Part shown: positions 30,685 to 34,266 of the stretch, piece by piece
How the letters are laid out: the number at the start of each line of letters is the position of its first letter
Position numbering within the stretch: the stretch's first letter is position 1
Assembly: GCA_030526515.1 (NCBI GenBank)
Contig: JAUNCQ010000008.1
Location: forward strand, 1 to 55,491
Direction: 5' to 3'
Origin: Coriobacteriia bacterium
Lineage (GTDB): Bacteria; Actinomycetota; Coriobacteriia; Coriobacteriales; Eggerthellaceae
Length of the DNA: 55,491 nucleotides
Position numbers and translations under genes: made by a program
Notes under the pieces: model-generated
What the model saw: the letters and a program-made list of their open reading frames with translations, nothing else
The model's database searches: none
Told to the model about the DNA's origin: nothing

Positions 30685-31561
30685 TGCGGTCACCTCCCAT
30701 TTCGTAGATGAAGATTTCCTCCAGGGTCAGGGGCAGGATGTTCACGAAGGTCGGGGCAGGGGTCAGCTGGCCGAACGCCGCCTCCGCCTGCTCGGCGGAT
30801 CCGCGCACCACCAGGGTGAACAGACGGCCGGCCTGGTCCGTATGGAGCACGTTCAGGTCCTGCGGGAGGATGAGCTGGTCGTCGGCAAAGGCCACCTGGA
30901 CCTTGACGAAGCCCTCCTGCAGCTCCGCCAGCGGATGCTCAAGCAGCATGCGGCCGTGCTCCATCATGCCCACGTGGTCGCACACGTCGGTGAGCTCGCG
31001 CAGGTTGTGGGAGCTGGTCAGCACGGTCATGCCGCGCTCGGCCACATCGTCCATGACGGCGCCCCACACCTTGCGGCGGGTGGCCGGGTCCAGGCCGTCC
31101 AGGGGCTCGTCCAGCAGCAGCAGGTCCGGGCTCTGCGCCAGGGCCAGCCAAAACGCCACTTGCTTGGTCATGCCCTTGGACAGGGAGCGCATGGGCAGGT
31201 TTTCGTCCAGGTCGAACAGATGGCTCAGCGCCGCGAAGCGCGCCTGGTCGAAGGTCGGGTACACGATGGCGTGGAGGTCGCGCATGTCGCGGATCCGCGC
31301 CTGCCCCAGGTAGAACAGGTCGCTGGGAACGAAGGCGATCTTGGCCTTGGTGTCCAGGTTTTCATACACCGGGGCGCCGTCCACCAGCACCTGGCCGCCG
31401 TCGGGCCGCTGCATGCCGGCGATGTGCTCCAGCAGCGTGGTCTTGCCTGCGCCGTTGGGCCCCACCAGGCCGTACACCGCGCCGCGGGGAACGGTCATGG
31501 TCACCCCGTCCAGCGCGCGGGTGGACCCGAAGGTCTTCACCACGTCTTTAACTTCAATCAT
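30674..31561 (-). CDS. ABC transporter ATP-binding protein (YtrB-like)
   Basis: The 295-residue protein has Walker A GPNGAGKTT, a signature variant LSKGMTKQ near residue 128, Walker B LLLLDEPLDGLD and switch His in TVLTSSHNL. The degenerate signature (LSKG rather than LSGG) is common in ABC-2-type exporters and drug-resistance ATPases. It overlaps the GntR gene upstream (ATGA) and the permease gene downstream. Confidence 0.9.
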   Translation of the reverse strand: MIEVKDVVKTFGSTRALDGVTMTVPRGAVYGLVGPNGAGKTTLLEHIAGMQRPDGGQVLVDGAPVYENLDTKAKIAFVPSDLFYLGQARIRDMRDLHAIVYPTFDQARFAALSHLFDLDENLPMRSLSKGMTKQVAFWLALAQSPDLLLLDEPLDGLDPATRRKVWGAVMDDVAERGMTVLTSSHNLRELTDVCDHVGMMEHGRMLLEHPLAELQEGFVKVQVAFADDQLILPQDLNVLHTDQAGRLFTLVVRGSAEQAEAAFGQLTPAPTFVNILPLTLEEIFIYEMGGDRNAR

Positions 31562-31920
31562 GAGGATGTCCCCTCCTTAAGTCGCAAGGCAAGCTGGTCA
31601 GCGGTCACGCCCAAGTCCTGCAGCTCCGCGGCCGTGCGGTCGAACTGCTCCAGCAGCTCGGCTTTGCGCTGGTCGCGAGCCGGTTCCGCGGCGGTGACGA
31701 AGCTGCCCTTGCCCGCCGCGGAGTACGTGAGCCCCTGGGCCTCCAGTTCGCGATACGCGCGCTGGATGGTGTTGGGGTTGATGGCCAGCTGGGTGGCCAG
31801 GCTGCGCACCGACGGGAGCTTGTCGTCCGCCTGGAGCACGCCGGCCAGGATCAGCCCGCGGAAGCCTTCGACCACCTGCTCGTACAGGGGCCGCGGGTCG
31901 CGGGGATCGATACTGATCAT
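31558..31920 (-). CDS. YtrA-type GntR regulator
   Basis: The 120-residue protein has the winged helix (RPLYEQVVEGFRGLILAG, LPSVRSLATQLAINPNTIQR, LEAQGLTYSAAGKGSFV) and a short helical tail, typical of YtrA. The ATG at 31920 follows AAAGGAGGTGGGCGC; upstream in-frame starts are unsupported. It is the first gene of the regulator-ATPase-permease operon and probably represses it through the inverted repeat near 32074-32101. Confidence 0.9.
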   Translation of the reverse strand: MISIDPRDPRPLYEQVVEGFRGLILAGVLQADDKLPSVRSLATQLAINPNTIQRAYRELEAQGLTYSAAGKGSFVTAAEPARDQRKAELLEQFDRTAAELQDLGVTADQLALRLKEGTSS

Positions 31921-32051
31921 GCGCCCACCTCCTTTCGTCCGGTTCGTGGGTCGGCGATTGCAGGGCTGGCTGCCTGGTCGACTGGCGACCGGCCACCTAG
32001 CCACGCGGGCTACGGCTCAGCCCACCCGCAATCGCATACTGTCGTAGCTAC

Positions 32052-32101
32052 TATGCCAACTATACTAAGGCACTTAGTACAGTTAGGCAATACTGTATTA
32101 G
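32052..32101 (-). promoter_or_regulatory. operator/promoter region of the YtrA-type operon
   Basis: TTAGTACAGT and ACTGTATTAG form an imperfect inverted repeat (8 of 10 pairs) around TAGGCAAT at 32074-32101. Further TTAGTA and GTACTAA half-sites lie nearby, and TATAGT on the minus strand (near 32061-32066) is a likely -10 box. The YtrA-like protein encoded downstream is the natural ligand. Confidence 0.55.
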
Positions 32102-32173
32102 TACGATTCATACAGTTTCTTCACACAGTACGCTTTCGCCCGCGGGTCCCGTGTCCAAGCTCCATCCGCAGGA

Positions 32174-32717
32174 CGTTCACCGGGCGTTTGCCGTCTGCAG
32201 GTGAACGCCGTCAGATTCGACAGTTCGTTCACCTGCTGGCCGCCCCTCGTCGGTGAACGATATCTGGGCCCCTGCTCTCAGCCGCGGCCCGCCAGGTCGT
32301 TCCCACAACGCGCACCCTCGTTGTGCGCTCGAAAAAAGGCCCCGAAATCCATTCCCACTCTGAGGCGGCGCGTTGTCTGAACGCCCACCTCGTTCGCACA
32401 ACGGGGGTTCCGGGGCCAAACCGGCCCATACCCCCCGTTGTGCGAACGGATTTCCCCTCCCGGTCCGTTCGCACTCCGAGGACGCGCGCTGTGGGAACGC
32501 TTTTTCGACCCGAAATCCGTTCCCACAATCGCCGCGCTCGTTGTGCGCACGGACAATCGTGCGCACAACGGCGCCTCCCCATGTGCGAACGCCCTGAAAG
32601 CGTTCGCACTTCTGCCCCGCTCATCATGGGAACGAAAATCCGTTCCCACATCGCAGGGGCCCAAAGTGAGAACGCCGCCGAATCGTTCACGCTTTGGGGG
32701 ACATCATCGTGCGAACG
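32174..32717. repeat. array of eleven inverted-repeat units, ten of them exactly 34 bp
   Basis: Each unit is a 9-base arm, a variable centre, and the inverted arm: CGTTCNCAC, 16 bases, GTGNGAACG. Spans are 32174-32207, 32226-32259, 32298-32331, 32350-32383, 32391-32448, 32466-32499, 32518-32551, 32558-32591, 32601-32634, 32641-32674 and 32684-32717. All are 34 bp except the fifth, 58 bp, whose arms extend to 16 perfectly paired bases (GTTCGCACAACGGGGG). The first two units use the arm CGTTCACC. Linkers are 6-18 bp except one of 38 bp; some share GAAATC before the left arm. The centres differ and no frame is conserved. Confidence 0.85.
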
Positions 32718-32823: not shown

Positions 32824-32856
32824 GGAGGGGGCGGAAGCAACGCTTTCGCCCCCTCC
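32824..32856 (-). terminator. terminator after the radical SAM gene
   Basis: A 15-bp stem (one G-T pair) is formed by 32824-32838 and 32842-32856 around AAC. On the minus strand it is followed by TTGCGTTTGC. It lies 70 bases past the stop of the radical SAM gene and ends the second respiratory locus. Confidence 0.75.
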
Positions 32857-32925: not shown

Positions 32926-34266
32926 TTAGCGCAGGGACTCCTTCAGCCACGGCGGATACACGCGGCGGCCGCAGTCGTCAGTCAGGTGATACGAGCAGAA
33001 CGGGATGGCCTCGCCGGACGGCACGGTCACCATCATGGAGCATTCGCGCATGCGCTCCATGTCCATGCTGACGGCGTCCATGTAGTTCATGATGATCACG
33101 CTCAGGCCGGTCTTGACCTCCACGCCCTTCTTGCACAGGATGTCCAGGAACACGGAGCCCTGGGGGCTGTCGGGGCTGTAGCCCTCGGCGTACTCCTCGA
33201 AGGTCATGCGCTTGGTGGCCGGGTAGAAGCCGGACTTATGCTCGGCGCTTTCGTCCTTCACCAGGAAGACGCCCTGGTCGCACAGGGGGTGGCTGCAACC
33301 CAGCGGCCAGATGTCGTAGGGATCCAGCAGGCCGTCGGACTGCTTGGCCAGCTCGAAGATGACGTCGCCGGAGCTCATGGGGATGGCGCGCTCGGCGTCG
33401 AAGCGGCCGGACGTGAACGCCGGCTGCAGAGCCAGGCCCGCCACCACGTCGGAGTTCTCCAGGGCAAAGCGGAGCAGGTCGCCCAGCTGGCCGTCGTTCA
33501 GGCCGGCCACAACCGCCACGGAAAGCACCACCTGGATGCCCACCTCGCGACAGCGCTCGATGGCCTTCAGCTTGGTCTTCAGGATGTCGCGGCCGCAGGT
33601 GGTCTCGTACACGTTGCCGGTCAGGCCGTCGAAGGACAGGTAGACGCCGGTCAGGCCGTGGCCCACCAGGTCCTCCAGGTAGCCTTCGTTGTTGGCGATC
33701 ACCAGGCCGTTGGTGTTGACCTCGATGCCCCAGAAGCCCTTTTCGCGACCCAGCAGGATGATGTCCTTCAGGTCCTTGCGGGTGGTGGGCTCGCCGCCGG
33801 TCAGCTGCACGGCGCCGTCGGTGCCCACAGCGTTGGCGATGGTGTCGTACATGGCGCCGATCTCGTCCATGGTGGGGTCGTCTTCCCCGCCCACGGCGCT
33901 GGCGAAGCACACCGGGCAGCGCAGGTTGCAGTTGCGGGTGACCTCGATCTCCAGCAGGGTGCCGCGGCGCTTATGGCGATGGCACGTGCCGCAGCCCTTC
34001 GGGCACGGGCCCGTGGGGTCGCAGGTGTTCTGCGGAGCCGTGCGCGGGAACGCCTCGGAGCGCAGCCACTGGTAGTGCTCGGCGTCAGGCCACATGCGGG
34101 TGACCAGGCGGCCGTGCTCCGGGCAGGTGCGGTCCATCCAGACGATGCCGTCGGCGTCAGCGTAGACCTCGGCCTCGTATTCGTTCAGGCACGTGGGGCA
34201 CAGGGCGCCGGTCACGTGCAGGTGCTTGCAGCCCTCGGGGGTGCTCAGCTTCTTTTCGTCCGCCAT
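32926..34266 (-). CDS. radical SAM enzyme, COG1964 type
   Basis: The 446-residue protein has the radical SAM cluster motif CNLRCPVC near residue 113, LTGGEPTTRKDL, and the conserved N-terminal zinc or Fe site (CPTCLNEYEAEV, then DRTCPEHG) typical of the COG1964/MJ0619-like group. Known members of that group include methylase-like and lipid-coupling (Tes-type) enzymes, but many are uncharacterised. A Cys-rich stretch (CDPTGPCPKGCGTC) may bind a further cluster. It is the last gene of the operon and follows the DUF2064 gene by 3 bases. A maturation or product-modifying role for the MopB enzymes upstream is possible. Confidence 0.85.
   Translation of the reverse strand: MADEKKLSTPEGCKHLHVTGALCPTCLNEYEAEVYADADGIVWMDRTCPEHGRLVTRMWPDAEHYQWLRSEAFPRTAPQNTCDPTGPCPKGCGTCHRHKRRGTLLEIEVTRNCNLRCPVCFASAVGGEDDPTMDEIGAMYDTIANAVGTDGAVQLTGGEPTTRKDLKDIILLGREKGFWGIEVNTNGLVIANNEGYLEDLVGHGLTGVYLSFDGLTGNVYETTCGRDILKTKLKAIERCREVGIQVVLSVAVVAGLNDGQLGDLLRFALENSDVVAGLALQPAFTSGRFDAERAIPMSSGDVIFELAKQSDGLLDPYDIWPLGCSHPLCDQGVFLVKDESAEHKSGFYPATKRMTFEEYAEGYSPDSPQGSVFLDILCKKGVEVKTGLSVIIMNYMDAVSMDMERMRECSMMVTVPSGEAIPFCSYHLTDDCGRRVYPPWLKESLR

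Follow-up and report, generated by a model that had tools for sequence, protein, structure and literature searches.

The array between the YtrA-like and radical SAM genes

The window, meaning the whole stretch of 55,491 nucleotides that was analysed, is contig C46 of the genome studied here (G000), a 2.4-Mb draft in 93 contigs. Between the genes for a YtrA-like regulator and a radical SAM protein, we located all eleven of the inverted-repeat units which an earlier note on this DNA had placed at 32174-32717 (Table 1). As had been described, two motifs alternate along the array, ten of the units are 34 bp long and one is 58 bp long (32391-32448). The strict pattern CGTTCNCAC-N16-GTGNGAACG was matched exactly by only two of these units, compared with no exact match in 100 shuffled sequences; the remaining units carry 1-4 differences in their arms, and the first two represent a divergent subtype. 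The 58-bp unit had also been said to contain 16 paired bases on each side: this is the case in the window copy, but most other copies of the array do not retain the inner pairs. A/T content is high in four of the eight spacers (about 55-86% AT vs 37% in the window), with fixed A/T tracts beside the arms, which would favour bending of the DNA. No promoter or terminator pattern was found in the window array.

Two features were observed in the DNA on either side. The stretch at 32040-32120, just upstream of the YtrA-like gene, is A/T-rich with AGTAC/ACTGTAT-like repeats and is possibly the operator or promoter region of that gene. At 32824-32856, in the interval separating the array from the radical SAM gene, there is a strong GC inverted repeat with no T run (GGAGGGGGCGGAAGC...GCTTTCGCCCCCTCC), which is perhaps a hairpin at the gene end.

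Table 1. Features of the window array and its neighbouring genes (window coordinates; numbered units U1 to U9 form the conserved nine-unit layout).
Feature	Position	Strand	Description
GntR-family (YtrA-like) regulator	31558..32004	-	Neighbour outside the element; 5' side toward the array
Outer unit 1	32174..32207	.	34 bp, divergent arms CGTTCACC...GGTGAACG; also beside the C14 copy
Outer unit 2	32226..32259	.	34 bp, divergent arms
U1	32298..32331	.	34 bp, first of the conserved nine-unit layout
U1/U2 spacer	32332..32349	.	18 bp (AAAAAAGGCCCCGAAATC); length fixed in 7/8 copies; both ends carry short A/T tracts
U2	32350..32383	.	34 bp, 18-bp spacer ahead
U3 (long unit)	32391..32448	.	58 bp; GGGGG / CCCCC extend the arms
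U4	32466..32499	.	34 bp, matches the strict pattern exactly
Second 18-bp spacer	32500..32517	.	Consensus GATTTTCGGCCCGAAATT; same design as the 32332..32349 spacer
U5	32518..32551	.	34 bp
U6	32558..32591	.	34 bp, 6-bp spacer ahead
U7	32601..32634	.	34 bp, 9-bp spacer ahead
U8	32641..32674	.	34 bp, matches the strict pattern exactly
U9	32684..32717	.	34 bp; C46/C14/C33 homology ends in or near U9
Radical SAM protein	32926..34266	-	Neighbour outside the element; 3' end toward the array

Array copies in the genome and the spacing of their units

A search of the whole genome found matches to the 34-bp pattern far beyond the window: 9 exact sites, 33 sites at ≤ 1 mismatch (0 for a control pattern) and 70 sites at ≤ 3 mismatches (18 for the control). 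About ten copies of the array are present, dispersed in both orientations on C46 (the window), C14, C31, C33, C34, C45, C63, C77, C80 and C81, a number which should be read as a lower bound. The arrays on C14, C31, C34, C45 and C63 sit close to contig ends, indicating that the draft assembly probably breaks at arrays and that the true number may be higher; the C34 and C45 copies are partial and lie at contig ends. We were able to confirm that the observation made in the earlier note is real, and it had been understated. Neither outcome which the note had said would refute it was obtained: the pattern did not occur in shuffled sequence, and the arrays in other intergenic regions of the genome keep the 34-bp unit length.

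Eight near-complete copies have the same layout of nine units, which, given as alternating unit and spacer lengths in bp, is 34-18-34-7-58-17-34-18-34-6-34-9-34-6-34-9-34. The exceptions are C31, in which the first spacer is shortened, and C80, which ends after U7 and is without the last two units; minor variants include a 17-bp centre in a few units and a long unit of 57 bp in some copies. When the complete copies were compared, all eight spacer lengths were found to be kept (seven of eight in C31). Identity between copies was 83-94% in the arms and 27-80% in the centres. Neutral decay would not erase the centres while keeping the lengths and the arms, which argues for selection on the arms and on the distances between them. 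The copies most closely related to each other are C46, C14 and C33 (80-85% identity over 419-541 bp), and the two outer units are common to C46 and C14.

We also compared the two sides of the units. Across the 67 units of G000 the arms vary independently, with paired letters occurring at the chance rate apart from one weak exception at position 8. In an alignment of eight arrays, changes on both sides of paired positions were observed 9 times, compared with 11.2 in shuffles, i.e. there was no excess covariation. As the two sides vary independently and without compensatory changes, the units in G000 do not appear to be RNA or cruciform hairpins.

The centre-to-centre steps in the nine-unit layout are 52, 53, 63, 52, 40, 43, 40 and 43 bp. 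These are in register with a 10.5-bp period (P = 0.0014 vs uniform steps), with the period itself being poorly resolved by only eight steps (R = 0.79 at 10.5 bp and 0.81 at 11 bp).

A second, unrelated family was found in G000, consisting of a 20-bp palindrome (about CGNCYSTTSTASAARSGNCG) in about ten arrays on C7, C14, C22, C30, C65, C77 and C82, one of which is at the end of C77 (L162:14354-14680). The steps in this family (52, 61-63, 72-73, 113 and 124 bp; n = 36) gave a best R of 0.93 at 10.3 bp, and the two halves of the palindrome vary independently, with no covariation. The palindrome was absent at ≤ 1 mismatch from G001, a species of the same genus, and from 19 other relatives. As this second family follows the same rule, what recurs is a geometry and not one sequence.

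Related arrays in other actinobacteria

No species of the genus was seen apart from G000 and G001, and the latter contains at least 8 arrays. The majority of these are simpler, consisting of a 34/35-bp unit, a 17-bp spacer, a long unit of the U3 kind (57-58 bp), a 17-bp spacer and a 34/35-bp unit, some with extra units. The arrays of both species lie outside genes, their neighbours being tandem, convergent or divergent, and no recurring gene was seen beside them. It should be noted that GC skew is confounded by gene strand as a guide to the direction of replication. Array sites differed between the two species at the two loci compared: G000 has an array in the prfB-tkt interval, which measures 692 bp there vs 138 bp in the array-free G001 counterpart, and a second interval, in which G001 has an array, measures 706 bp in that species vs 123 bp in G000. 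Whole arrays have thus been gained or lost between the species, and at the array-free counterpart loci the intergenic DNA is too diverged for an insertion joint to be read. The presence of arrays at non-shared sites would also fit a mobile or selfish repeat.

Several other repeats were observed beside the G001 arrays. An apparent third repeat family (GTGGYAAYAACG... / ...CGTTRTTGCCAC) adjoins two of them (L167:2430-2930 and L027:5490-5580), a repeat of roughly 130-157 bp flanks arrays on contigs C169, C182 and C183, and other dispersed repeats, e.g. CAAATTGCCACGGGCC, are also found in the flanks.

Among 138 genomes of the family, clusters of 34-bp units were found in G000 and G001 only; single near matches in two further family genomes look like chance. 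In the genome collection beyond this genus and Arthrobacter, nearly all exact matches were isolated and not in arrays. The phages and plasmids searched gave no match, the viral contigs examined contained no array, and seven viral contigs outside this set have an everted 6-bp pattern; a phage or plasmid element was rejected as a candidate.

Some Micrococcaceae also carry the 34-bp unit, either as pairs or in arrays. Exact cores numbered 8-49 in 7 of the 197 sampled genomes from the family of Arthrobacter echini (control 0-3). Arrays in A. echini and two of its relatives were found through their match to the same 34-bp pattern, and in the four of the seven that were examined outside the A. echini group (G632, G649, G680 and G693) the sites are unit pairs separated by 6 or 7 bp. 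A protein family common to the Eggerthellales and Micrococcaceae sites is conjectural, as the Micrococcaceae set was found by searching with the Eggerthellales pattern, although identical arms, a 16-bp centre and a 6-bp spacer would be hard to get jointly by chance. The A. echini arrays are at the same loci as those in the two other Arthrobacter genomes (six loci, with flanking proteins about 50-98% identical), and at these orthologous loci the sequences and numbers of units differ and the spacer classes are the same.

The distance within Arthrobacter units is kept almost without variation, being 16 bp in 142 pairings, with any other distance occurring ≤ 7 times, and the spacers between units are of 6, 15-18, 26-29, 37-38, 66-69, 77-81 and 89-90 bp. 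The steps (n = 108) gave a best R of 0.84 near 10.35 bp; these are partly dependent through tandem duplications, and the 28 distinct values alone gave an R of 0.72. Arthrobacter is independent evidence for phasing and is much stronger than the window layout. Spacing in whole helical turns, a trait of phased arrays of multiple dimer sites, is therefore present, with the window layout alone contributing eight steps.

Covariation between the two sides of the unit was absent in 128 distinct Arthrobacter units pooled and in G693/G680. G632 and G649 differ in this respect, as their outer unit positions covary (z = +5.1), and hairpins or terminators may play a part there. The covarying outer bases give long stems in these two genomes, unlike in the other lineages, and their pairs are mostly near gene ends. 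In G693 and G680, strong conservation is seen in the middle of each pair, between its two units, where the sequence is TTG-TCTAGA-CAG (or TTG-TCTGGA-CTA); this middle resembles an 11-6-11 core layout.

Interpretation of the arrays

We consider it reasonably probable that the array consists of about nine to eleven double-stranded DNA sites for one putative dimeric, sequence-specific protein, stacked on one helical face and probably folding or wrapping the intergenic DNA. This reading is preferred because the layout is fixed, the halves are independent, the steps are helical, the Arthrobacter loci are orthologous, the orientation of neighbouring genes is mixed with no promoter or terminator pattern, and the spacers are A/T-rich. 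Of the possibilities offered in the earlier note, it corresponds to a dimeric protein measuring distance, which our tests favoured through the fixed inner distance, the independent half-sites and the spacers varying by whole helical turns. One dimer would occupy each 34-bp unit, on two inverted half-sites which span about 13 bp each (CGTTCNCACWNYG) and have their centres separated by about 21 bp (two turns), and the long unit may be a stretched variant of the dimer site. The distance between adjacent dimers would be close to a whole number of helical turns, so that they would share roughly one face and could touch, with the A/T tracts in the spacers helping to bend the DNA. The product would be a compact nucleoprotein patch which folds or wraps the intergenic stretch and has an architectural (nucleoid or domain-marking) role. 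We infer the binding of a protein, the contact between dimers and the architectural role, the last from the geometry alone.

The strongest alternative is a selfish repeat, with a transposase that depends on this same geometry. The arrays would then be a non-autonomous mobile element, in which numerous binding sites for a transposase or recombinase are moved in trans and the host gains nothing. This is consistent with the ten dispersed copies in both orientations, the close relationship between C46, C14 and C33, the presence or absence of arrays at the two loci compared, the flanks common to copies within the genus and the position of several copies close to contig ends. However, every copy has retained its arms and spacing even though the centres diverge towards background, which would ask for selection after insertion; moreover, the copies have no neighbouring gene in common, the Arthrobacter arrays remain at orthologous loci and the phage, plasmid and viral sequences examined gave no array, and we regard a selfish repeat as rather unlikely. 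Less likely again, and in our opinion improbable, are hairpins of RNA or single-stranded DNA, which would act at the ends of genes either as REP-like terminators or to stabilise mRNA. Hairpins would agree with the complementary consensus arms, with the avoidance of genes by arrays and pairs (17 of the 34 placed Micrococcaceae sites are between convergent genes and 4 between divergent genes) and with the outer positions which covary in G632/G649. Against them is the lack of covariation in G000, Arthrobacter, G693/G680 and the second family, and helical steps would be meaningless for RNA. The window array has no terminator-like pattern and no match in Rfam, and the Y1 (IS200/IS605-type) transposase (PF01797) was found in 0 of the 9 array genomes, which are incomplete drafts, with control genomes being positive. 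Small hairpin elements inserting side by side, as the earlier note had also suggested, are not supported, as it is whole arrays and not single units that are dispersed in G000. A structured non-coding RNA was likewise rejected, there being no covariation and no known family.

Sites of the loxP/FRT kind are 34 bp long with inverted arms (13-8-13 bp), and the half-sites of tyrosine recombinases are spaced two turns apart. The array units have the same length, inverted arms and two-turn spacing, and half-sites of about 13 bp would leave an 8-bp centre. Recombination or inversion sites are nevertheless very improbable: the 67 units have 62 distinct central 8-mers and not an identical crossover region, so that exchange partners are nearly absent, the order of units is kept among copies, and packed loxP/FRT-like arrays would self-delete. 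The reported lack of a recombinase in the window also held, as none of the 40 ORFs scanned matched a recombinase family. Just as doubtful is a transcription-factor regulon, in which clustered operators would control the neighbouring genes. Cooperative operators typically have inverted half-sites with phased spacing, and the window array is upstream of a ytrA-like operon; however, the genes on either side of an array may be convergent, tandem or divergent, and no gene was seen to recur there. LexA-type boxes were dropped, as GAAC and GTTC are too far apart, and CRISPR was dropped, as the units contain no identical repeat.

Phased operator and centromere-type arrays are known, including ParR/parC iterons and cooperative operators. 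Our arrays are similar to these in that many putative sites for a single protein are exactly spaced and face roughly the same side of the helix, but differ in that about ten chromosomal copies of one layout are dispersed, no adjacent binding-protein gene was recognised and the sites are 34-bp inverted pairs and not short direct iterons. Bacterial MITEs (listed in PMC3733652) are also dispersed in intergenic copies with presence or absence between species; unlike these, the arrays do not have a terminal pair with internal filler, as their whole length is repeated units under a spacing constraint, and no target duplication was seen at the compared loci, where the intergenic DNA is too diverged for the joint to be read.

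REPs are RAYT-linked stem-loops in which the stem is 6-13 bp long, the loop is mostly short and one end has a GTAG or CGTC tag (PMC3733652, PMC2817692). REPs and BIMEs are short inverted repeats in regularly spaced intergenic clusters, with several families per genome, often species-specific and often at gene 3' ends (PMC3733652, PMC2817692), and the arrays are likewise clustered, intergenic and multicopy. They differ in their 16-bp centre, helical phasing and fixed nine-unit layout, and in the absence of a RAYT-type transposase from the nine array genomes. A stem-loop with compensatory pairing was not found in G000, with some coupling only in G632/G649, and in place of a one-sided GTAG/CGTC tag (PMC3733652) the unit ends alike on both sides (CGTTC/GAACG). 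Membership of REP/RAYT was therefore rejected, as the arrays are BIME-like in genomic distribution yet lack the defining features of REPs. We found no published description of such arrays or motifs in the open-access literature, in which only the REP papers were relevant.

We tentatively suggest that these arrays may belong to an undescribed class, in which dimer sites form helically phased arrays between the genes of some actinobacteria, as several unrelated families of sites per genome, each with its own dedicated protein building local chromatin-like patches. The questions of which protein reads the sites, and whether shifting a site by half a turn breaks an array, would then become testable. 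Even if the arrays are selfish, they represent a class of repeat defined by DNA geometry and not by hairpin folding, which searches for stem-loops would misread or miss. If the dimer-site reading is true, there are actinobacteria which assemble patches of protein, sequence-specific and helically ordered, at set intergenic places, and these patches would be nearer to an insulator or a centromere than to the usual loosely specific nucleoid proteins.
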